DNA from: Coriobacteriia bacterium
GTDB taxonomy: Bacteria; Actinomycetota; Coriobacteriia; WRKU01; WQUG01
Direction: 5' to 3'
Length of the DNA: 36,961 nt
Assembly (NCBI GenBank): GCA_009781115.1
Contig: WQYT01000011.1
Span: 1 to 36,961 of the forward strand
A program made the position numbers and the translations under genes. Positions within the stretch are counted from its first letter, which is position 1. Each line of letters starts with the position of its first letter. The notes under the pieces are model-generated. The model had not been told where the DNA came from. It saw only the letters and a program-made list of their open reading frames with translations, and searched no databases. Shown here in pieces: positions 9,252 through 24,208 of this stretch.

Positions 9252-11069
9252 TCACTGCAGCGGCAGCTGTTGGTACAGGTCCTGGTCGCGAAAACCGAGG
9301 TTGCGGTAGTACTCGCGGGTCCCTACTGAGCTGATCACGTTGAGCGCCGTGTAGCCACGGTCGCGCGCGATCTGGCAGGCAGCCTCGATCAGCCGCCGGC
9401 CCAGCCCCAGGTGCTGGGCATTGCCGCCCGCCTCATCCAGCGCGGCGACCTTGCCGTAGACATGGACCTCGCGGATCATCGCCTCGCCGGGGCCGACCGG
9501 CAGCCCTGACTGGCGCGAGCTGACATACACCGCTTCAGGCAGCGACAGCCGCAGGAAGCCCGCGATCCGGTCCTCCGGCGTGACCCACTGCAGGAAGTAC
9601 TCGTCAGTTACCGTGGTCGCGTACGGGACCGACTCAAGCCGCAGACTCTCAAGATCGACTGCATCTGCCGCGATCTCGCGGGAGCGGATCTCTGCGATGC
9701 TGGCGCCTGTCTGCTCAATGCGACGTTCGACCAGTTGCCGCAGGTTGGCCTTCTTGTTGCCCGCCACAATGTCATGGGCGGAGATATCGCGGATCATCCG
9801 CGAGATACGCGCATAGGGCGGTGTGGCCAGCGTATCGGCTGCCAGTACTTCAAGCAGCTCCTCTTCGCTGTAGGGGCGCCAGGTCCCCTCGCCATAGCAA
9901 GCGCACAGTCCCGTGCCCGCCACCAGAGAGCAGGGATAGAGCTTCACCTCATCGGGCAAAAACGCCGGGTCCGTGCACAGGCGCGCATAGTCGCGCTTGT
10001 CTGCTGCGGGCGTAGCGCCCAAAAGATTCAACATGAAATGCACATGCGTCTTGAAACCAAAGACCCGCAGCAGCTCAAAGGCCTCGCGAATCTTGTCGAC
10101 GGTCACGGCGCGCTCGTTTTGCCGCAGCACCACAGGGTCCAGGCTCTGGATGCCCATCTGGACCTTGGTGCAGCCCAGACGGCGCAGCATCGTCAGGCTG
10201 GTCACGGTGATGGCGTCAGGGCGCGTCTCGACCACCAGCCCCACCACCCGACGGGCGGCGGTCTCGTTGCGGACCTGCTGTCGGACAAGCCCGTCGATCG
10301 TGGCCGTCTGCTCCGCAGAAATGCCCCGCCAGATCGCATCATTCAGATAGAGCTGCTCGATCGCCTGATTATAGGTGAGCGCGCCGCGGTCGATCTCTGC
10401 CTGCCGCGCGCTCACACGCGCCGCCAGCTCCTCGCGATTGTTGCTGAGCCCCGCGTCCTTATAGCGCTGCCGACGCTTCTGCACGCCTGCCGCTACCGCC
10501 GCGGCGCCGTCACTCAGCGCCCGGAAGAGTTCGGTCGCAAACCAGATCTGGTAGGCGCGCGGATAGTCGCTCCAGGTGCCGCCCAGGACAATCAGCTCGA
10601 CCTTGTCCGTAACATGGCCCATCTGCGTGAGCGCCCGCAGGCGGGAGGCCACCTGTAAGTAAGGGTCGAAGTAATTGCGCTCCGCCCGCTGGCAGGCTGG
10701 CTCATCGCTTAAGTAGCTCTTGGGCATCCTCACGTCGTTGGGGCAGTAGAGACAGGCGCTTGAGCACTTCCAGGGCTTCGTGATCACCGTGATCGTCGCC
10801 ACGCCCGATGCAGTGCGGCGGCGCTTGACCTGCAGCGCCTGCAGCAGGCGCTTCTCGGTCTCCGAATCGATGCCCCAACTGGCCCAGCGCTGCGGGTCAG
10901 ACTCGCGCACGTGCAGGTAGTACGCAAGCACCTTGCGCTTTGCCGGTGGCTGCGCGCTCAGTTCAGAGCGCCTGCGCGGGTTACCAATGACGCACGAGAA
11001 CAGCTCCTCGTCATCAGACCGCTCGCCCCGCCGCAACGCGTCCAGTATGTCCAGCAGTATCTCTTCCAC
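9252..11069 (-). CDS. elp3: Elp3-family radical SAM / GNAT tRNA wobble-uridine modifying enzyme
   Basis: A 605-residue protein matching Elp3, which uses S-adenosylmethionine and acetyl-CoA to build the 5-carboxymethyl group on wobble uridine 34 of tRNA. The radical SAM cluster motif is Cys102-x3-Cys106-x2-Cys109 (KCSSACLYCPND). Family-typical blocks follow: DKVELIVLGGTWSDYP, VGLVVETRPDAIT, LGCTKVQMGIQSLDP and FKTHVHFMLNLLG. The C-terminal acetyltransferase domain covers about 500-605, with HLGLGRRLIEAACQIARDRGY as the acetyl-CoA site and YYRNLGF near the end. The start is GTG at 11069. Other Elongator subunits are absent from the window, as expected for bacterial Elp3, which acts alone. It is divergent from a Trm9-like methyltransferase that could carry out the next step on the same base. 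Confidence 0.92.
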   Translation of the reverse strand: MEEILLDILDALRRGERSDDEELFSCVIGNPRRRSELSAQPPAKRKVLAYYLHVRESDPQRWASWGIDSETEKRLLQALQVKRRRTASGVATITVITKPWKCSSACLYCPNDVRMPKSYLSDEPACQRAERNYFDPYLQVASRLRALTQMGHVTDKVELIVLGGTWSDYPRAYQIWFATELFRALSDGAAAVAAGVQKRRQRYKDAGLSNNREELAARVSARQAEIDRGALTYNQAIEQLYLNDAIWRGISAEQTATIDGLVRQQVRNETAARRVVGLVVETRPDAITVTSLTMLRRLGCTKVQMGIQSLDPVVLRQNERAVTVDKIREAFELLRVFGFKTHVHFMLNLLGATPAADKRDYARLCTDPAFLPDEVKLYPCSLVAGTGLCACYGEGTWRPYSEEELLEVLAADTLATPPYARISRMIRDISAHDIVAGNKKANLRQLVERRIEQTGASIAEIRSREIAADAVDLESLRLESVPYATTVTDEYFLQWVTPEDRIAGFLRLSLPEAVYVSSRQSGLPVGPGEAMIREVHVYGKVAALDEAGGNAQHLGLGRRLIEAACQIARDRGYTALNVISSVGTREYYRNLGFRDQDLYQQLPLQ

Positions 11070-11089
11070 GATAACAACTACTATACTCC

Positions 11090-11126
11090 AGCTGACAAAA
11101 TTACCCCTGGGGTAATTTTGTCAGCT
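11090..11126. repeat. 37-base palindrome between elp3 and the methyltransferase (TGACAAA...ACCCCTGGGGT family)
   Basis: Two 18-base arms match perfectly around a single central T (11108); the core reads ATTACCCCTGGGGTAAT. It lies in the 60-base divergent gap, directly after TATACT at 11082-11087 and 3 bases before the methyltransferase start codon. Related palindromes lie at 35170-35200 and, more degenerate, at 33936-33954. It could be a shared operator, or a hairpin in the 5' leader that hides the start site. Confidence 0.85.
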
Positions 11127-11129
11127 ACA

Positions 11130-11915
11130 ATGGTCGCTATGGATAGCGACACGGCTGACAGACTGCGCGAACTCAATGCTGACTTCTACCGGAGGCAGTG
11201 CGCTTCGTTCGCGGAAACGCGTCAAACGCCTTGGCCCGGCTGGCAGAAGTGCCTGGCCCTCCTGCGGGAGAATCGCAACGGAAACACTTCGCAGGAACTT
11301 TCGGTCTTTGACCTGGCATCCGGCAACTTAAGGTTTGAGGCCTTCCTGGCCTCAGCGCTGCCTGAAGCCGCCTTCACGTTCTTCGCTGCGGATAACTGCG
11401 ATGAGCTCCTCCCTTCGGCGCCCGAAGCACACTATCAGCACCTCGATATCCTGGCTGCGCTCGACCAGAACCAGAGCTCGCCGCTGTCCACCCGCTTTGC
11501 CGCGCCTGCCTGCGACCTGTCAGTCTGTTTCGGCTTTCTGCACCATGTCCCGCTCCCGCAGCAGCGCGCGCAGATACTTGACGTCCTGATCGAGCAAACC
11601 AAGCCCGGCGGCTACCTCATCGTGTCCCTCTGGCAGTTCCTGAACGATCCCACTCGCCATAAGAAGGCGCAGGCCACCCACACGCGTGCCAGAGAAGAAC
11701 TTGGCCTCCCGGAGCTGGGCGACGGCGACTACCTGCTCGGCTGGAAAGATATCGCGCACACCTATCGCTACTGCCACAGCTTCTCGGATGCAGAGATCGA
11801 CCAGCTCATCGCCAGCGCCACCGACCGCACCACGCTCATCGCACGCTTCACCTCAGATGGTCGCACGGGCAACCTTAATACGTACCTGATCTTTAAAGTT
11901 GCGCAAATGAGCTAG
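11130..11915 (+). CDS. Trm9/ABH8-like SAM methyltransferase (putative tRNA mcm5U34 methyltransferase)
   Basis: A 261-residue class I methyltransferase. FYRRQCASFAETRQTPWPGW (residues 19-38) closely follows the Trm9 signature of an aromatic helix, F-x2-TR and a WP pair. The SAM site is VFDLASGNLRF (59-69), a degenerate form of DxGCGxG. Later come FGFLHHVP, KPGGYLIVSLWQFL, and GDGDYLLGWK with YRYCHSFSDAEIDQLI. These fit the Trm9 blocks GD-x-PW and RYYHxF-x-ExEL. Trm9 methylates cm5U34, the Elp3 product, to mcm5U34. Divergence from elp3 across 60 bases supports that role. The frame is open from 10911, but that would run through elp3, so I take ATG 11130 (or 11139). No ribosome site is seen and the start follows the palindrome closely. 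Function is inferred from motifs and context. Confidence 0.75.
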   Translation: MVAMDSDTADRLRELNADFYRRQCASFAETRQTPWPGWQKCLALLRENRNGNTSQELSVFDLASGNLRFEAFLASALPEAAFTFFAADNCDELLPSAPEAHYQHLDILAALDQNQSSPLSTRFAAPACDLSVCFGFLHHVPLPQQRAQILDVLIEQTKPGGYLIVSLWQFLNDPTRHKKAQATHTRAREELGLPELGDGDYLLGWKDIAHTYRYCHSFSDAEIDQLIASATDRTTLIARFTSDGRTGNLNTYLIFKVAQMS

Positions 11916-12364: not shown

Positions 12365-15145
12365 ATGAAACATGGAATAGCAAACAAAATTCAGAAGGAG
12401 AATCGTCTGGGGTTCTTACGCCTGATGTTGATTTCGGTTGTGCTGCTTGGCGTACTGTTCAGCGCTTTTGGCTCAAGCCCCAGCGCTCTGGCACAAGATC
12501 CCAAGCTGTCAATAAACGACACGGGCATTGCCAGCGTTGAAACCAGCGGTTCAGCTGGCGTCACAGACGGCGCGGACACCACAAATACTACTGACACCCC
12601 GACGCCTCCTGTCAACACCGATAAACCCAGCAAGGCGCCTGGCCCGGGGGTCAAGCCCACAAATACGCGCTCCTTTGATGGCACGATCGACCTGTCTCAG
12701 ACCATCAGCTCAGATAATCCCGGCTATCTGGTAAGCGGCAACGCGCTTCCCAATCTTACCGGTGGCGCCATAAGCAACCCTGATCGCGTCCTGTCGTTTA
12801 CGCAGGCAGCCGATAACAAGACCTACAACATCATCCAGACGGGACTCAGGAGCCCCGCAACCAATCCTCCCAAACAGGGCACATCCTTATATATGGGTAT
12901 TGAGGTCCCCGCCGGAGTAAACATCACGTTGGTACTCAGCGAGATCGACCTGACAGGCAAAATCTTCCTGACAGACACAAGCCAGACAACGATGCTGATC
13001 GATGGAGCGAACTATATCAGGAACGGTTATATCGCGGTGCCTCCGGCCGCTGCGATCACGTTTGATAGCTATAGTGGGCGCGACGCAGATGACTCGCTCA
13101 ACATGCCCTTAACCGTAGGCGCCACCAGCAACTTTGCCAGTATTGGCGGCCTTTCGGGCACAACCACAACCAGCGGCGGCGACGCGGGCCCGATCACAAT
13201 CAACGGCGCAACGATTACTATAGCCGCCGCCTCTTCCGGGGCGGGTATCGGCGGAGGCGGCTCGAGTGTTGACACCGGTCTTGCTGCTATCTATGGCGGA
13301 AGCGGCGGTGCGATTACGATCAATGGCGGAATCGTATCGGTAACGCAGTACGGCAAGGGGGCCAGTAACGGATCGGGCATTGGCGGCGCCTGTATTGGCG
13401 GCGGCGGCGGCGGTAGTGGTAACAGTGGCGGCGGCGGGGGCAAAATCAACATCACCGGCGGGACCGTGTCGGTCACCCAGTATACGCGCGGCGCGGGTAT
13501 CGGCGGCGGTACCTTTGGACCTTCTGGTGACATCACCATAGATGGCGGAACCATCACCGCACAGGCACTGGACTATACCCCAGGCGCCAATCAGGGTACC
13601 TGCGGCATTGGGACGGGCGCGGGGTCTACCACACCGGGGCCAGGCAGCATTACGATCAATGACGGAACGGTAAACGTAACCAGCGACTGGACGGGGATCG
13701 GCAGACAGCAATACTCTTCCCTCGTAGGGGGCGCCCCCTCTCCCCTCGACATCACCATTACGGGCGGTACCGTGACCTCAAAAGCAGGAAAAGGCGTGGG
13801 CGTCGGCTACCTCTATGATCCCCTGGGGGGCGTGCTTACCATTACGGGCGGAACCGTGGTTGCCTCAAGCGATACGCGCTCCGGCATTGGGGGACCCGGC
13901 ATGGGAGGAGGATTTACTCCCGTGCAACTCTATCTTGACGCAAAGGCGGATGTGACCGCGTATTCAGGCGCCAGCAGTACGCTTTACGCGGCCATTACCG
14001 CTTCTGACAATACCGGCAACGGTTCCTATGTCAACACGCGGTATTACACAGGCGCCAACACCACGCCGCTTTCTGCAAGCGCAGACACAACCCTGAAGGT
14101 ATATGCCCCTGGGGGAAGCGCGCTGCGCAGAACCTTGACGCTGCCCAAAAACTATTATTGTGTTGGTTACAGTACCGGCACTACGACGTCGCGGACCGAC
14201 AATATCTATGCGTACAATGCTACAACTTCAACATTTTTGGGAAGCATTGTACGCAATACCGACGCCAGTCCGGATATTTATTCGATCTCCAAACTTGCTG
14301 ACTACAATGCCCACAACAGCAATGCGAATAACGGAGTACTACCCGTCACGCTCATTACTCAATATGCCGTCACCGAGAAATACGTTGACGTCAACGGCAA
14401 AACCCTCTCTGGCGACACGGTAACGGTCCTCCCTACAACAAATCCTGGCTATTTAAAAGTCATCCCTGCTCTTACTGACTACAAGGTAGTGGGCTTTGCG
14501 GTCGGCGCCTATACGCCGCCCAACTATACCCCTGGCACTACCGCTACAGCCAGCGTGAAGAGCTCTCTGACCGTGTATTTTGTCTACGAAAAGATCGCCA
14601 CCGCGCTGACCATTTCCAAGGCGGTAACAGGCGACTACGGCAATCAGCTCAGGGACTTCAGCTTTACGCTTTATGGTGCTGACAGCACGGGCAAGGCCTT
14701 GCCTGCCGACACACGCTTCGACTATACCGGCGGCGTTGTTGCCGGCTCAAGCGTCGCGCCTCCCCCTGACGATACACTCATACTTGACGACGAGGGCAAG
14801 GCGACCTTTGTGCTCAGGAGCCACCAGTCCATCACCATAGCGCAGATTCTGGGAAACACCCAGGTGCGCATTGTCGAAAGCCCTGACCCCTTGTATACGG
14901 TGTCTTTTAAGGACAGCGCTGACACTTACACAACCTCTAACAGCAACACCGGGTGGCGTCTTCTGACCGGAGGCGCCCGGGTCTTCGATTTCTTCAACAA
15001 GCGTACCGAGGCGCCAGAATCCGGCCTGACCGTAGCCCGGACAGAAGTCCCCTATGCCCTGCTGGCGGGCCTGTTAACGCTGCCCCTGCTCCTCCTGGCC
15101 TGGCTCAAACGCCAACGACAGAAGAGAGGGAGTGAGCCAAGATGA
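12365..15145 (+). CDS. Large pilus-associated adhesin with Gly-rich beta-repeats, MucBP-like and Cna-B/FctA-like domains
   Basis: A 926-residue surface protein, first gene of the pilus operon. The signal peptide ends near ALAQD (about 45). Residues about 270-515 hold imperfect repeats of the form ITINGGTVTV followed by GxGIGGG, which suggests a right-handed beta-helix. A MucBP-like part lies at about 669-745 (TEKYVDVNGKTLSGDTV...LTVYFVYEK). A pilin-type domain at about 748-885 starts LTISKAVTGDYGNQLRDFSF and ends RVFDFFNKRT; LTISKAV supplies a Lys of the kind used in intramolecular isopeptide bonds. The end is a hydrophobic segment (about 897-916) and a basic tail. There is no LPxTG; only the stretch VARTEVPY precedes the segment. 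By position it is the likely tip adhesin, as in Streptococcus pyogenes pilus loci. Its ligand is unknown. It overlaps the next gene by 4 bases. Confidence 0.8.
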   Translation: MKHGIANKIQKENRLGFLRLMLISVVLLGVLFSAFGSSPSALAQDPKLSINDTGIASVETSGSAGVTDGADTTNTTDTPTPPVNTDKPSKAPGPGVKPTNTRSFDGTIDLSQTISSDNPGYLVSGNALPNLTGGAISNPDRVLSFTQAADNKTYNIIQTGLRSPATNPPKQGTSLYMGIEVPAGVNITLVLSEIDLTGKIFLTDTSQTTMLIDGANYIRNGYIAVPPAAAITFDSYSGRDADDSLNMPLTVGATSNFASIGGLSGTTTTSGGDAGPITINGATITIAAASSGAGIGGGGSSVDTGLAAIYGGSGGAITINGGIVSVTQYGKGASNGSGIGGACIGGGGGGSGNSGGGGGKINITGGTVSVTQYTRGAGIGGGTFGPSGDITIDGGTITAQALDYTPGANQGTCGIGTGAGSTTPGPGSITINDGTVNVTSDWTGIGRQQYSSLVGGAPSPLDITITGGTVTSKAGKGVGVGYLYDPLGGVLTITGGTVVASSDTRSGIGGPGMGGGFTPVQLYLDAKADVTAYSGASSTLYAAITASDNTGNGSYVNTRYYTGANTTPLSASADTTLKVYAPGGSALRRTLTLPKNYYCVGYSTGTTTSRTDNIYAYNATTSTFLGSIVRNTDASPDIYSISKLADYNAHNSNANNGVLPVTLITQYAVTEKYVDVNGKTLSGDTVTVLPTTNPGYLKVIPALTDYKVVGFAVGAYTPPNYTPGTTATASVKSSLTVYFVYEKIATALTISKAVTGDYGNQLRDFSFTLYGADSTGKALPADTRFDYTGGVVAGSSVAPPPDDTLILDDEGKATFVLRSHQSITIAQILGNTQVRIVESPDPLYTVSFKDSADTYTTSNSNTGWRLLTGGARVFDFFNKRTEAPESGLTVARTEVPYALLAGLLTLPLLLLAWLKRQRQKRGSEPR

Positions 15146-15726
15146 ACGCACGGCAAACGCTGACACAAGCACAAGCACAAGCGCCCGCGCAAACCCCCGC
15201 GCCCGCGCCCGCGCCAGCAAGCCCCGCCAAAGCGCCTTCGCTGTGGCGTGAGGCCATCGCACTGCTCATCAAAATCGCGGTGATCGTTCTTACCTTCGCG
15301 CTGCTCTTCACCTTTGCCTATGGCATTCATCGCAGCATGGAGCCCGGCATGAATCCGGCAGTCAAAGACGGCGACCTGGTCATAACCTATCGCCTCGACA
15401 AAAAATACGCCATTGGCGACTTGCTTTTGCTTGAGTTTAAAGGAGAGACACAGGTACGCCGGGTTGTTGCCGGGGCAGGAGACGTCGTCGATATCACGGA
15501 GAGCGGTCTGGTCATCAACGGCGCCCTGCAGCAAGAACCAAACATCTACCAAAAGACCCAACCCTATGACGGAGGGATCTCGTTTCCCGTCACGGTGGGC
15601 CCGGGGCAGGTGTTTGTCTTAGGCGACGCCCGCGAAAACGCAACGGACAGCCGCGTCTATGGGCCGGTAAACACCAAAGACACCCAGGGTACCGCTATCT
15701 CGCTTATAAGGAGACGACACCTGTAA
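15142..15726 (+). CDS. Pilus-locus signal peptidase I homologue with degenerate catalytic dyad (SipA-like)
   Basis: A 194-residue S26-family protein with a Gln/Ala/Pro-rich N-terminus (about 7-30), one membrane segment (about 38-62) and the family blocks MNPAVKDGDLVITYRLDKKY, RRVVAGAGDVVDI and FVLGDARENATDSRVYG. In pilus-type members the nucleophile position just before M-x-P is Ser, or Asp in the Streptococcus pyogenes SipA type; here it is Gly69 (PGMNPAV). The catalytic Lys of the VKRVV block appears as Arg106 (VRRVV). A nearby Ser65-Met-Glu-Pro exists but is shifted by four residues relative to the DGD block. I therefore read it as a non-proteolytic assembly factor or chaperone for the pilins. 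It overlaps the adhesin gene by 4 bases. Confidence 0.8.
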   Translation: MNARQTLTQAQAQAPAQTPAPAPAPASPAKAPSLWREAIALLIKIAVIVLTFALLFTFAYGIHRSMEPGMNPAVKDGDLVITYRLDKKYAIGDLLLLEFKGETQVRRVVAGAGDVVDITESGLVINGALQQEPNIYQKTQPYDGGISFPVTVGPGQVFVLGDARENATDSRVYGPVNTKDTQGTAISLIRRRHL

Positions 15727-15857
15727 TGCAGACAACACTGAACATAAATCACCATGAACAAGGGCGAAGACACTCCGTCAATATGCCCGTAACCTCATGT
15801 TCATGTTTATATAGCAAGAAAGCAATAACGAGCAAAACATTAAGGAGAGAGAGAACT

Positions 15858-17147
15858 ATGTTGAACAAATTTAAATTAGTACTAATCTTTGCACTTGCGC
15901 TCACTCTGTGCTTTGCAAGCATGCCATCCGCATTTGCAGAGGAGGGTGATTCGGGCGCCATCATTGGCTCAGAAGCCTATCCGGCGCAGGCTGGCATCAC
16001 CAAGGTCCTGCAAATGCCTATCGGTACAAAGACTCCGGGAACCACCTTTAAGTTCCTGGCAGAAAAGATATCTGTGGATAACGAGACTGACCCCGGGATT
16101 GTTGCCGGTATGCCCGACCTCAAAAACCTGAGCATTCCTTTTAGCACCAGCAGCCTGGCAACATCAAACGGCGATGTTAAAACCGTTCTGTTGCAGACCG
16201 AAAACATTTTTGAGGGCGTTGACTGGCCGCATGCTGGCGTCTACGTGTATGAGATCACAGAAGATGACCAGACCTTTTCCGACAAGAACGTCTTTCCCGG
16301 ACCTGACTCTGAAATGATGCTCTTTTCTGGCGCCAAGTACACGCTTAACGTCTATGTAAAGGCGGCTAAAAATGGCGAGCTGTATGTCTATGCGGTCGGC
16401 TCGCTCGTTACCGTCATTGACAACGATGGCCAGACGCAAGACACCAAGGTCGATCCAACCCCGGGCATCGATGGCGCCTACTCAAAGATGATGTTTACCA
16501 ATACCTACCTCAAGGTCAACGGCGGGGATAACCCTCTGACCGATGGCACGCTGTCTGTCAGCAAAACCGTGAGCGGCGACTTTGCCGACGACACCTGGTA
16601 CTTCGACTTCACCATCAAGCTTACTCCAAATTCTCTTACGCCTACCGATGTAATTCCGGTTTTCAAGCGCGCGTATGTGGTGGAGAACGGGGCCATCATC
16701 GATCCTGTTGATAACCAGGGCACAGACGCCGTCATTGACGAGGACAGCATTGGCAAATATATTGAGATAAACATCAACGCCGATACCAAGTTCAAGCTTA
16801 AGGACGGTCAGAAACTGGTGTTTATCGACACGCCGGTCGGTATGACCTATGAAGTGACCGAGAAAGCCGTCACCGATTACACCACATCTGCCAACGTGGT
16901 AACCGGCGGCAACGCGGTAAACGCACCCGCCCCCGGTGACCCAAATAGCGACTTCAAGATCGTCAGCCAGCATGTTGGCGACGGCGCCAACAGCGCGGAC
17001 TACAACAACCACCGCAACGATGTTTCGTTTACCGGCATCAGCATGGCAAACCTGCCCTTTGTTGGCATGATTGCTCTGGCCGTCGCAGCTCTTGTTGCCT
17101 TTGTGGTAGCCAAATCCCGCAAGCGGAACTCTGGAGCGCAGGCATAG
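15858..17147 (+). CDS. Major pilin, FctA-type, with isopeptide-domain motifs
   Basis: A 429-residue pilus subunit. ATG 15858 is chosen over the longer frame from 15726 because it follows AAGGAGAG and gives a clean signal peptide ending AFAEEG (about 28). Two pilin domains are visible. The first has ITKVLQMPIGTKTPGTTF with Lys49, and the E-box VYEITEDD. The second begins LSVSKTVSGDFADDTWYFDF and has the E-box TYEVTEKAV. Lys plus E-box is the pattern for intramolecular isopeptide bonds in Spy0128-type pilins. The sorting signal is VSFTG (389-393), then a hydrophobic segment and KSRKRNSGAQA. It is close to the (Q/E)VPTG signals of FctA pilins polymerised by class B sortases rather than LPxTG. 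The sortase B gene follows by 56 bases. Confidence 0.88.
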   Translation: MLNKFKLVLIFALALTLCFASMPSAFAEEGDSGAIIGSEAYPAQAGITKVLQMPIGTKTPGTTFKFLAEKISVDNETDPGIVAGMPDLKNLSIPFSTSSLATSNGDVKTVLLQTENIFEGVDWPHAGVYVYEITEDDQTFSDKNVFPGPDSEMMLFSGAKYTLNVYVKAAKNGELYVYAVGSLVTVIDNDGQTQDTKVDPTPGIDGAYSKMMFTNTYLKVNGGDNPLTDGTLSVSKTVSGDFADDTWYFDFTIKLTPNSLTPTDVIPVFKRAYVVENGAIIDPVDNQGTDAVIDEDSIGKYIEININADTKFKLKDGQKLVFIDTPVGMTYEVTEKAVTDYTTSANVVTGGNAVNAPAPGDPNSDFKIVSQHVGDGANSADYNNHRNDVSFTGISMANLPFVGMIALAVAALVAFVVAKSRKRNSGAQA

Positions 17148-17203
17148 TTAAGCTTCTGTTCTTATATAAGAGCAGGGCCTGAAGCCTGAATGGATGAATC
17201 CTT

Positions 17204-18172
17204 ATGAGCGTAGCAGTAAAAATCGGAAGAGCAACCGTACGGACAGCAAACGGTGCGATCAACCTGATCGTGCTGACAGCCATCCTGCTTCTTCTGGCGT
17301 TTAGCTGCTACGCTCTGTGGGACTCCAAACAGGTCTATTCGCAAGCTGACGCAAAACAGTACGCGAAATACAAACCCACTACTGAAGCTGGCAAGCTCTC
17401 CTTCCAGGAACTCCAGTCAATGAATAAGGATGTGTGTGCCTGGCTTGAGGTTTATGGCACACACATCGACTATCCGGTAGTGCAGGGCACAGACAATTTC
17501 AAGTACACCAACACAAACGCCGAGGGTCGCTACTCGCTTTCCGGCGCTCTCTTTCTTGATTACAACAATAAAAGGGACTTCAGCGACTTTGCCTCCATCA
17601 TCTACGGACATCACATGGAAGAAGAGGCGATGTTTGGAGACATCGGGCTGTTTGTGCACAAGAGCTACTTTGACGAACGCACCTACGGCTCGCTTTATTA
17701 CGGGGACAAAAAGTACGGCCTTGAGTTTTTTGCCTTCATGCACGCAGACGCCTATGACAGCACGGTGTATCGCACCCAATTCGGGGACGACGCGCAAGAT
17801 CGTCAGGCCTACCTGGACCTCCTGCTCAGTCGCGCGGTGAACGTGCGCAGCACCGTCAAGGTGACTTCTGCTGACCGGCTGGTGCTGCTCTCTACGTGTT
17901 CTGGGAGCTCGACCAACGGACGCGACATCTTAGTAGGCAGGATCACCGATGCGACCTATAGTGATCCGTTTGCAGGAGAGCTGAGCAAAGCCCGAAACCC
18001 CGTTATTGATCGCCTGATAAACTTCTGGGCCAGCGCCCCTGTGTGGGTAAAGATACTGTTGGGCTTTTTGCCCCTGTTGCTGATCCTGATAGTGATCGTG
18101 ATCGCCGTTATGCGCAAGAAGAAGATATCCGCACGCCAAAAAGACGATGCGGTAATGATTGGGAGAGAATAA
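17204..18172 (+). CDS. srtB: Class B sortase, probable pilus polymerase
   Basis: A 322-residue transpeptidase that would join pilin subunits through the VSFTG-type signal. An N-terminal membrane segment lies at 18-38. The sortase B core includes DVCAWLEVYGTHIDYPVVQG, SGALFLDYNN and SIIYGHHM (His136 or His137). Then come LLSTCSGSSTNGRDILVGRI with catalytic Cys232 and Arg240. A second strong hydrophobic segment (about 280-305) and a basic tail lie at the C-terminus, so both ends are probably in the membrane; this is unusual for standard sortase B but is seen in pilus-associated ones. The stop overlaps the next start as TAATG, so the minor pilin is translationally coupled. Confidence 0.92.
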   Translation: MSVAVKIGRATVRTANGAINLIVLTAILLLLAFSCYALWDSKQVYSQADAKQYAKYKPTTEAGKLSFQELQSMNKDVCAWLEVYGTHIDYPVVQGTDNFKYTNTNAEGRYSLSGALFLDYNNKRDFSDFASIIYGHHMEEEAMFGDIGLFVHKSYFDERTYGSLYYGDKKYGLEFFAFMHADAYDSTVYRTQFGDDAQDRQAYLDLLLSRAVNVRSTVKVTSADRLVLLSTCSGSSTNGRDILVGRITDATYSDPFAGELSKARNPVIDRLINFWASAPVWVKILLGFLPLLLILIVIVIAVMRKKKISARQKDDAVMIGRE

Positions 18173-19269
18173 TGAACACCGGCCAGATACTGATCCATCG
18201 CAACGTGACACGCAAGACGCATCGCAGCAAGCGCCTGTTCGCGCTTACGCTTGCGTCTGGCCTGGCCTTGCTCTGCGCGCTCTGCCTCTGTCTGCTGCTG
18301 AGCTCTGTGGCCTATGGAGCAGGCCCGGCGCAGGTCACCCTGCCCGTAAAGCAGACCTTTACCTCGCACGGCTCTTCCAACCCGGCAAGCGACGTCTTCA
18401 GCTACCGCCTGGTCGCCCAGGGCGCCGCCCCCCTGCCTGATGGCAGCGCCACAGGAAGCTGGAGCTTTACCCTGCAGGGAACAAGAGAGGTCCAGGTCGG
18501 CCCACTCACCTTTAATTCGACCGGAATCTATTCCTATGAGTTAAGCTGCACGGACGATTCTGACGTAAATATCACCGGGGACACGGAGGTCTATCGCCTC
18601 ACGGTCTATGTCAAAAGCGACCTCACCACGCTTATTATTATCCGGAACAACGCAGGCGAGAAAGTCTCCCAGATGAGCTTTGATCAGAGCTATCGGGTAC
18701 TGCCCAGCGACAGCCGGGTCATGGTAGACCCCCCCGTGGTAAAGACCGTAACGGGCAATCCCACCCAAAAGGGCCGCTTTGGGTTCATCCTGAAGGCAGA
18801 AGATCCCTCTTATCCGATGCCTGCGGGCAGCGACGGTGGCGCCAAAACCATCTGGATCATGGGCGCCGGCCAGAAAGACTTTGGGGTCTGGAGCTACAGC
18901 AGCGACGGGACCTATCACTACACAATCGCCGAGCTTGACACCTCGCTGAAAAACTACACCTACGACACGGAGGTCTACACCATCACCGATGTGGTAACCG
19001 ACCGCGCGGGGCGCCTGGTGGTCGATCGCAGGGTCACTGACCGCAGCGGCAAGCAGGTCTCCCTGCCTTATTCGCTGTCATTTGTCAATCGCTACGAGGG
19101 CGCCCGGAAGACCATCCTCGGGGGCACCAAGGATTCAAGCCATCTGCCAAAAACCGGGGACCTTGTTCATCCGGCCTTCTGGCTGGCGGCGCTGCTGCTC
19201 ATCAGCAGCGTGTTTATCGCGCTCTGGCGCTATCGCACTTCTGCCAAAGCGCAGCAAGCAACGCAGTAA
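18172..19269 (+). CDS. Minor pilin / pilus base subunit with LPKTG anchor
   Basis: A 365-residue surface protein. ATG 18172 overlaps the sortase stop. The signal peptide is at about 1-48 (LLLSSVAYGAG). Two FctA-like isopeptide-type pilin domains follow. The first runs QVTLPVKQTFTSHGSS to GIYSYELSC with YRLTVYVKSD. The second runs PPVVKTVTGNPTQKGRFGFILKAED to GTYHYTIAELD. It ends with a canonical LPKTG (325-329), a hydrophobic segment and a short basic tail. The canonical signal, unlike the pilin's VSFTG, suggests that this subunit is handed to a housekeeping sortase and fixes the fibre to the wall. It is the last gene of the operon and is followed by a terminator hairpin. Confidence 0.87.
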   Translation: MNTGQILIHRNVTRKTHRSKRLFALTLASGLALLCALCLCLLLSSVAYGAGPAQVTLPVKQTFTSHGSSNPASDVFSYRLVAQGAAPLPDGSATGSWSFTLQGTREVQVGPLTFNSTGIYSYELSCTDDSDVNITGDTEVYRLTVYVKSDLTTLIIIRNNAGEKVSQMSFDQSYRVLPSDSRVMVDPPVVKTVTGNPTQKGRFGFILKAEDPSYPMPAGSDGGAKTIWIMGAGQKDFGVWSYSSDGTYHYTIAELDTSLKNYTYDTEVYTITDVVTDRAGRLVVDRRVTDRSGKQVSLPYSLSFVNRYEGARKTILGGTKDSSHLPKTGDLVHPAFWLAALLLISSVFIALWRYRTSAKAQQATQ

Positions 19270-22502: not shown

Positions 22503-22638
22503 GAGGCAAGTAACGGGCAAGTAAAACTACAGCATACTTACTCCTGCGGAATTGCATTTCCGCAGGTAAAACGGCTACAGTCCATGTAAACAATATCTTC
22601 TTAGCGCCAAGAGGCAAGTAACGGGCAAGTAAAATTAC
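22503..22638. repeat. 28-base direct repeat pair flanking a hairpin
   Basis: GAGGCAAGTAACGGGCAAGT continues to AAAACTAC at 22503-22530 and recurs at 22611-22638 with one difference. Each copy contains GGCAAGTAA twice. Between them CCTGCGGAA (22543-22551) pairs with TTCCGCAGG (22558-22566) around a 6-base loop. The second copy overlaps the stop codon of the AlbA_2 gene. The pair may mark an insertion or a transcription end; no transposase is present. Confidence 0.7.
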
Positions 22639-24083
22639 ATCCAATATGGCACGTAGCTTTTAGTCTTCGCACTGGCTTCTGGATCGAAAGGTTTGATGAG
22701 TCCCTTATCAACAGCTTTCTTGATCAATCGCGACGTCATTGCCTGGCTACTTTCCGGCAAATCAAGTCTGTTGCGAAGTGACGCATTGGTAAGATGCTTA
22801 CTTTCGGTCTGCTGGTAGCAGGCATGGATATAGCAAGTCCAGAGCCGCTCTTCAATAGTCATATCCTTGTACGCTTTATGCGCCACCATTATCACTCGTG
22901 TTGCAGCTGGGTATTCAGTTATCTTTGGTGCGGGAAGATAATAGTCGCCACAAGCCAGCTCAATCTTATCCCAGCCGCTGCCACGTTCTTCACTTAGTTC
23001 AGCCCTGCGAAACAATGCAGCCATCTTCTCGTTGCGGGATTTGGGCGGACTATCAATAAACCTATTGATATCAACAAGCGGAGCACCGGGATTAGTGAAC
23101 TCAATGCGCCCATCAAAGATTTCTACCATTGGTCCTGAGCCTGTTTCGGCTAGATCCTGATGAATAAGTTGATTTGCAACCAACTCCCTGATTCCAGTAT
23201 CTGGATAGGCAGTTATGGTCTCGCGCGTAATGCCGCCGATTAACTCTTCGCGGGATGGCAGGATGCTTTCTATCAAACGAATCATCTCTTCGAAGCCAGA
23301 AATATAGCCACGATCCAGAATTTCCTCTCGTACTCCTTCAATACGGTTCACACCTTTGTACTGGATGATTCTTAATGCCTTGCGCCAGACGCGATCAAAA
23401 CTGCTTAACTTTTTGCCAAAGAGCAAAGCTCCTGTATTGGTTATTGTATACAGCCCGTTATCCTGCTTGCGAATTACCTCATCTTCTTTCAAATAATGAA
23501 GCATCTGTGATTGACTTTCTGGCTGCTCTATTCCCAGCAAGTCAAAGTAGGAGACATAGTCCAACAGCTTAAACGCGTCTCGCATGGTTAAATCAGTTTT
23601 AGCGGGCTGTTCTTCAAATTTGGCCGAGTTGAGCTTCTTCCAAAGCTCAGCTTCTAACGCAGGAAAGTCTTTGAGCTTTTTCTTGTAGCTTCCCACCCTG
23701 ATCCAAGAGTTGGATTCGAACTGAATGGTAGTTACTTGTGCAGGGTCGATCTCCAGCAAGACAATGGACCTGTTATTGATCTCTTCAATATAAAACCAAA
23801 AGTTTGCATAGTCACTGAGCCGTTTACGCAACCAAGTTTCCAGCTCGGTGTTATTGGACTTTGCTTTATGGGGATTAAATGTTGTACCGAGTATCTCATG
23901 CGTCTTATCGTCAATTCCCCAGACAACATACGCCTTGTTCTTATCGTGTAAGGTTGCCGAGTTAGCAAGCGCGCTAATGTATTCTCCAATCCCTGTGGGA
24001 TCGGCGTTGTCGTGCTTGAACTCAACCCACTCAGTCTCGGCTGGCAAGTTTAGTAGCTCGCGTACCAGCGGCTCAATGCTCAC
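22635..24083 (-). CDS. ATP-binding protein with Schlafen AlbA_2 domain
   Basis: A protein of 482 residues from the GTG at 24083, which follows AGAAGAGG; the frame extends to a GTG at 24119 without a ribosome site. The N-terminal AlbA_2 domain shows LLNLPAETEWVEFKHDNAD, IGEYISALANSATL, AYVVWGIDDKTHEILGTTF and SWIRVGSYKKKL. The C-terminal part has the GHKL-like pattern VANQLIHQDL...MVEIFDGRIEFTNPGAP and RRAELSEERGSGWDKI, then a winged-helix-like tail. Proteins of this type are annotated as transcriptional regulators or ATP-dependent helicase-like and are often linked to mobile or defence-rich regions. The role here is unknown. It is more AT-rich than the metNIQ genes nearby, which fits acquisition. 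Confidence 0.82.
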   Translation of the reverse strand: MSIEPLVRELLNLPAETEWVEFKHDNADPTGIGEYISALANSATLHDKNKAYVVWGIDDKTHEILGTTFNPHKAKSNNTELETWLRKRLSDYANFWFYIEEINNRSIVLLEIDPAQVTTIQFESNSWIRVGSYKKKLKDFPALEAELWKKLNSAKFEEQPAKTDLTMRDAFKLLDYVSYFDLLGIEQPESQSQMLHYLKEDEVIRKQDNGLYTITNTGALLFGKKLSSFDRVWRKALRIIQYKGVNRIEGVREEILDRGYISGFEEMIRLIESILPSREELIGGITRETITAYPDTGIRELVANQLIHQDLAETGSGPMVEIFDGRIEFTNPGAPLVDINRFIDSPPKSRNEKMAALFRRAELSEERGSGWDKIELACGDYYLPAPKITEYPAATRVIMVAHKAYKDMTIEERLWTCYIHACYQQTESKHLTNASLRNRLDLPESSQAMTSRLIKKAVDKGLIKPFDPEASAKTKSYVPYWM

Positions 24084-24208
24084 AGATGCACCTCTTCTGA
24101 TTCCTTTCAATGCGACCACTCAATTGTAGCGGATTGTACCGTCTGTTCAGCAACGCTTCGTGTTCAAAATACATGCCTCAGGCACACGCAAACTAACGCA
24201 TACGGCAT

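Follow-up and report, generated by a model that had tools for sequence, protein, structure and literature searches.

Two adjacent, divergently transcribed genes of a gut bacterium of the class Coriobacteriia, encoding Elp3 and a Trm9-like methyltransferase, are best explained as a compact bacterial pathway for the tRNA wobble modification mcm5U34, a reading to which we assign a probability of about 0.84. The window, by which we mean the whole stretch of DNA analysed, comprises positions 1–36,961 of the forward strand of contig WQYT01000011.1 (assembly GCA_009781115.1), and the features of the gene pair are collected in Table 1. An earlier note made from this DNA alone had placed the two genes back to back at 9252–11915, and both were confirmed there, elp3 occupying 9252–11069 on the minus strand and the methyltransferase gene running to 11915 on the plus strand. 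It had also suggested that together they could form a two-gene bacterial mcm5U34 pathway; sequence comparisons support this idea and broaden it, since the pair is no single oddity and is spread across the Coriobacteriia and other Actinomycetota.

Table 1. Features of the elp3–methyltransferase pair (window positions; ScTrm9, yeast Trm9)
Feature	Position	Strand	Remarks
elp3 (radical SAM/GNAT tRNA U34 carboxymethyl transferase)	9252–11069	−	605 aa; TIGR01211, PDB match, motifs
Region between the divergent genes, two −10-like elements back to back	11070–11138		pattern in relatives
TATAGT, −10-like element of elp3	11080–11085	−	10 nt before its GTG
Perfect palindrome between the −10-like elements	11090–11126		18-base arms, 1-base centre
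TACAAT, −10-like element of the methyltransferase gene	11126–11131	+	7 nt before ATG 11139
Trm9-like class I methyltransferase	11139–11915	+	258 aa (ATG 11139) or 261 aa (ATG 11130); profile, hhalign, AlphaFold
N-terminal motif FYRRQCASFAETR	11184–11222	+	R31 aligned to ScTrm9 R29
SAM motif I, DLASGN	11310–11327	+	
FLHHVP	11535–11552	+	H139 aligned to ScTrm9 H115
GDYLLGW	11724–11744	+	D-x4-W part of Trm9 DVxVPW
YRYCHSF	11763–11783	+	R213 aligned to ScTrm9 R241, C215 to Y243
LNTYLIF	11874–11894	+	N250 aligned to ScTrm9 N271

The product of the minus-strand gene is Elp3. It scores 389.6 bits against TIGR01211 (curated cut-off 350), contains the Pfam domains PF16199, PF04055 and PF00583, and has an Elp3 structure, 5l7j, as its top PDB match (E = 3.7e-79). 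The CxxxCxxC motif at residues 102–109 is present with C102, C106 and C109, as are the GNAT/acetyl-CoA motif QHLGLGRR (552–559) and REYYRNLGF (585–593). The protein of known structure, from Dehalococcoides mccartyi, is likewise a bacterial stand-alone Elp3 with the CxxxCxxC cluster motif, but differs in having the linker cysteine cluster RCRCIRCRE where the window protein has EIRSREIA; this cluster is also missing from eukaryotic Elp3.

Elsewhere, the window holds a surface-protein/pilus cluster (12365–19269), with DUF7601 proteins at 12365–15145 and 15726–17147, a signal peptidase at 15142–15726 and an FctA/Spy0128-type pilin at 18043–19269, as well as a protein combining Schlafen AlbA_2 and RecG C-terminal-like ATP-binding domains (22635–24119).

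The survey of elp3 neighbours that the earlier note proposed found the linkage strongly conserved; a lack of such linkage had been named there as grounds for refutation. Among 60 relatives, the methyltransferase is encoded in 29 and Elp3 in the same 29, with the remaining 31 having neither (29/29 versus 0/31), and Elp3 adjoins the methyltransferase in 29 of the 30 loci. One of these genomes carries two methyltransferase copies: one adjoins Elp3, and the second (L030, G058:C4:255273–256094) lies in a 3.8 kb locus without Elp3. A search of GTDB genomes gave 428 stretches with relatives of the methyltransferase, and Elp3 is present in 77 of the best 80 of these. These best 80 loci come mostly from Coriobacteriia (Slackia, Gordonibacter, Olsenella and Lancefieldella), with a few termite-gut bins titled Propionibacteriaceae as the non-Coriobacteriia members. 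The genes are divergent, with starts within 300 bases of each other, in 56 of 61 measurable loci (median 43.5). Same-strand arrangements also occur, with the methyltransferase preceding elp3 in three loci (L086, L097 and L103) and elp3 preceding the methyltransferase in two (L023 and L026), where stop and start codons overlap (ATGA and GTGA).

Co-occurrence extends to the phylum. Elp3 is encoded in 33 of 397 Actinomycetota genomes, and the methyltransferase accompanies it in all 33, with 32 matches at E ≤ 1e-12 and the last (G040) interrupted by a run of N. In this genome only the final ∼55 methyltransferase residues and a partial Elp3 were found, which resembled a joint deletion; as the run of N between the fragments is a sequence gap, we do not read it as a natural loss. 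No comparable methyltransferase was found in the 364 Actinomycetota genomes that lack Elp3 (0/364), in which two weak matches (G092 and G381) cover the core methyltransferase fold only. Fisher's test on the phylum co-occurrence gives 6e-49, a value that, like the counts, ignores phylogeny. Within two families (f4 and f6) and one genus (g31), presence and absence alternate with both genes always together; the pair is found in three separate families besides (f33, f42 and f71), and two deeply separated groups have it. A comparison of G044, which has the pair, with G056 of the same genus, which lacks both genes, revealed no clean empty site, with synteny stopping ∼1.8 kb before elp3.

For the methyltransferase, database names leave the identity unsettled because the Pfam matches are generic and all sub-threshold. 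Of two possible start codons, ATG 11139 is likelier than ATG 11130, as relatives begin MDxxTAxxL and a −10-like TACAAT lies directly upstream; the 60-base gap to elp3 given in the earlier note holds for ATG 11130 and becomes 69 bases with the likelier start. Residue numbers here are counted from ATG 11130. The protein carries FYRRQCASFAETRQTPWPGW, DLASGN, FLHHVP, SLWQF and RYCHSFSDAEIDQL. DLASGN, remarked on at first reading as departing from DxGCGxG, is unusual only at its Ser, with this position occupied by Cys in 76, Ala in 3 and Ser in 2 of 81 aligned sequences.

A best match to an unrelated methyltransferase had been named as grounds for abandoning the pathway idea, and the best PDB match is Trm9. 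Searched singly against solved structures, the sequence gave two weak matches, the better of which was Yarrowia Trm9 (chain 5cm2). A profile of 26 relatives, with matches taken to E = 1, found 51 PDB sequences, of which 5cm2 came first (E = 2e-6) and the second had 1.4e-4, and alignment of the family with yeast Trm9 using hhalign gave P = 5.8e-17 with an overall identity of ∼19%. The yeast sequence used is presumably correct, with its five published residue numbers and its match to 5cm2 both fitting.

In Trm9, tRNA affinity and turnover are both reduced by five published substitutions, R29A, H115A, R241A, Y243A and N271A (PMC5372719). The hhalign alignment places these residues opposite R31, H139, R213, C215 and N250. 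R31 is kept in 78, R213 in 80 and N250 in 79 of 81 sequences, all three lying outside the pattern used for collecting the loci; H139 is kept in 81/81, a conservation that is partly selected because the H positions sit within that pattern. Y243 is not matched, with Cys (C215) at this position in 77/81 sequences.

Three distant homologues recovered by a profile search of 199 Actinomycetota genomes give a deeper view of the family. Elp3 is near all three: it is the divergent neighbour in G127 and G091, and in G115 it lies one gene away. Against the PDB, the G127 homologue matches Trm9 first (E = 9.8e-18) over residues 26–218, most of its length, in a match spanning TR..PW, DVxxPW and RYxH. When the deep group is aligned with the Coriobacteriia sequences, 17 columns are invariant, and features common to Trm9 are among them, namely both Arg, the C-terminal Asn and the D-x4-W. 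At the position equivalent to Y243 the deep group has C, Y or F. From these comparisons, we consider it very probable that the methyltransferase works like Trm9. Counted against the pathway reading are the Cys at Y243, a motif I that departs from GCGNG and the low overall identity to Trm9.

Linkage and co-occurrence show no more than a shared pathway, and this leaves a small chance that the methyltransferase follows Elp3 on the same wobble nucleoside and modifies another atom or another Elp3-derived side chain (for example by 2′-O methylation or to give a further derivative), with a product other than mcm5U. The replacement of Y243 by Cys favours such an enzyme, but the Trm9 residues that orient cm5U34 (R29, H115, R241 and N271) are retained, and Trm9 is the top solved relative. 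A less likely alternative, which we regard as improbable, is an anticodon-loop methyltransferase of another kind, producing m3C32 in the manner of METTL6/Trm140 and merely co-regulated with Elp3. The AlphaFold model of the methyltransferase is confident (pLDDT 93.4), and METTL6 is among its close fold matches (TM 0.65 by query). Foldseek ranks 5cm2 sixth (TM 0.71 by target), amid other class I enzymes that include METTL6, so that fold alone is non-discriminating. METTL6 is absent from the 51 solved sequences that the family profile matches at E up to 1, with Trm9 at their head, and strict co-loss with Elp3 would be unexpected for such an enzyme. A m3C methyltransferase of the METTL2/6/8 (Trm140) type was rejected on these grounds, the similarity being one of fold only. 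It is equally improbable that an unrelated methyltransferase (for example, for a small molecule or rRNA) lies beside elp3 by chance or shared gene-order ancestry, since despite the generic, sub-threshold Pfam matches the adjacency survives orientation changes and holds across distant families, and co-occurrence is 33/33. A generic enzyme was rejected on the profile ranking and the elp3 linkage.

The intergenic region suggests how the pair could be expressed. Among relatives, 33 short intergenic regions were compared, and 28 have −10-like hexamers on both sides (shuffled sequences, mean 0.8 and maximum 4). The −10s facing both ways in relatives often merge into a single palindrome (CATTGTACAATG, ATTCTATAGTATAGAAT) close to each start codon, and symmetric, overlapping −10s such as CATTGTACAATG are seen between elp3 and the methyltransferase gene in L042, L043, L057, L063 and L065. 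Because the paired −10s sit a few bases from both start codons, a bidirectional promoter between the genes is suggested and both window mRNAs are probably leaderless. In the window, a perfect 37-base palindrome, AGCTGACAAAATTACCCC-T-GGGGTAATTTTGTCAGCT, separates TATAGT from TACAAT; it is unique to the window among the loci compared. L031, a locus of the same genus, carries at this position another palindrome, longer and with REP-like sequence, that shares the TGACAAAA...TTTTGTCA ending. The palindrome looks like a mobile REP-type repeat and is probably an insertion; a conserved operator was considered and rejected, since other species lack it and L031 has a different one.

Without Trm112, eukaryotic Trm9 could not be purified alone, and Trm11 and HEMK2 fail to bind SAM (PMC5372719), a point against the pathway reading. 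No Trm112 (PF03966) was found in the window, in the genome it comes from or in the order to which that genome belongs, with positive controls detected. This confirms for the window what had been noted at first reading, and answers the genome search then suggested. Among the 60 relatives there are seven PF03966 matches, mostly in genomes without the methyltransferase, and in the deep group one of six exceeds the cut-off, leaving its status uncertain there. Since Trm112 was found in neither its own genome nor its order, the methyltransferase, if Trm9-like in function, probably works without this partner. On account of Trm112 and Y243, we use the label Trm9-like and do not claim strict Trm9 membership.

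None of the 60 relatives gave an MnmG match above the cut-off. Partial matches lie mostly in ORFs of roughly 440–530 residues, lengths that fit TrmFO. MnmA is encoded in 59/60, so thiolation of U34 is available and the usual C5 pathway seemingly is not. Thirty-one of the 60 relatives seem to be without both MnmG and Elp3.

Taken as a pathway, the pair would act in two steps, the substrate and product of which we infer from the sequence relationships. Elp3 alone, as in archaea, would use acetyl-CoA and radical SAM chemistry to form cm5U at tRNA position 34, and the Trm9-like enzyme would use SAM, without Trm112, to methylate the carboxylate of cm5U, giving mcm5U, its methyl ester. In the tRNAs that MnmA thiolates as well (those for Lys, Glu and Gln), the end product is probably mcm5s2U34. 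The pair would replace the MnmE/MnmG branch, with the short bidirectional promoter and leaderless transcripts allowing the two enzymes to be co-expressed. That Coriobacteriia and some deep Actinomycetota have a complete two-gene, Trm112-independent mcm5U34/mcm5s2U34 system of this kind, standing in for MnmE/MnmG and driven by a symmetric bidirectional promoter, is a fuller proposal that we consider likely, at somewhat lower confidence than the pathway itself.

Known systems share parts of this arrangement. The mcm5U34 enzymes Trm9–Trm112 of yeast and Yarrowia (5cm2) and the methyltransferase domain of ALKBH8 have the same class I fold, FxxTRxxxW N-terminus, HH motif, D-x4-W, RYxH, C-terminal N and partnership with Elp3. 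The window enzyme differs from yeast and Yarrowia Trm9 in its identity of only ∼19%, in having no Trm112 gene found and in its Cys for Y243; the bacterial family differs from Trm9 and ALKBH8 in a motif I that is mostly DxACGN (DLASGN in the window), in lacking AlkB or RRM domains and in its occurrence in bacteria. Archaea such as Haloferax and Sulfolobus likewise have an Elp3 that acts without other Elongator subunits and, in some species, a Trm9 homologue beside elp3, with the two genes clustered in Sulfolobus (PMC5372719). Trm112 is present in most archaea, although none has been identified in Thermococcales or Methanobacteriales, whereas none was found in the genome of the window, and the bacterial pair differs further in having MnmA available for thiolation and a seemingly shared bidirectional promoter. 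In most bacteria, tRNAs of this kind are likewise modified at C5 of U34 by MnmE/MnmG, with MnmC or MnmM, but with other enzymes and chemistry (cmnm5U/nm5U).

According to a 2020 review, mcm5U belongs to Archaea and Eukarya and not to bacteria (PMC7694415). The earlier description of mcm5U as eukaryotic leaves out archaea, in which it is also known (PMC7694415, PMC7663514). A further review names Dehalococcoides as the one clade of bacteria with Elp3, reporting neither direct evidence for xcm5U34 there nor a known modified product (PMC7663514), and a 2026 paper reports numerous bacteria with Elp3 alone (PMC13315578). Our literature search, covering mainly open-access papers, found no description of a bacterial Trm9 encoded next to Elp3 and none of Elp3 in Actinobacteria or Eggerthella. 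We know of no earlier bacterial mcm5U pathway, and this would be the first.

With two pathway steps linked in many bacterial genomes, including those of cultured gut and oral species (carriers include Slackia piriformis, Lancefieldella rimae, Olsenella intestinalis and Senegalimassilia anaerobia), the product of bacterial Elp3 becomes directly testable. If the pathway is as proposed, a single-chain Trm9-like enzyme free of Trm112 would offer a simple model for human ALKBH8, and the pattern of occurrence of Elp3 and the methyltransferase is relevant to how one wobble modification system comes to take over from another.
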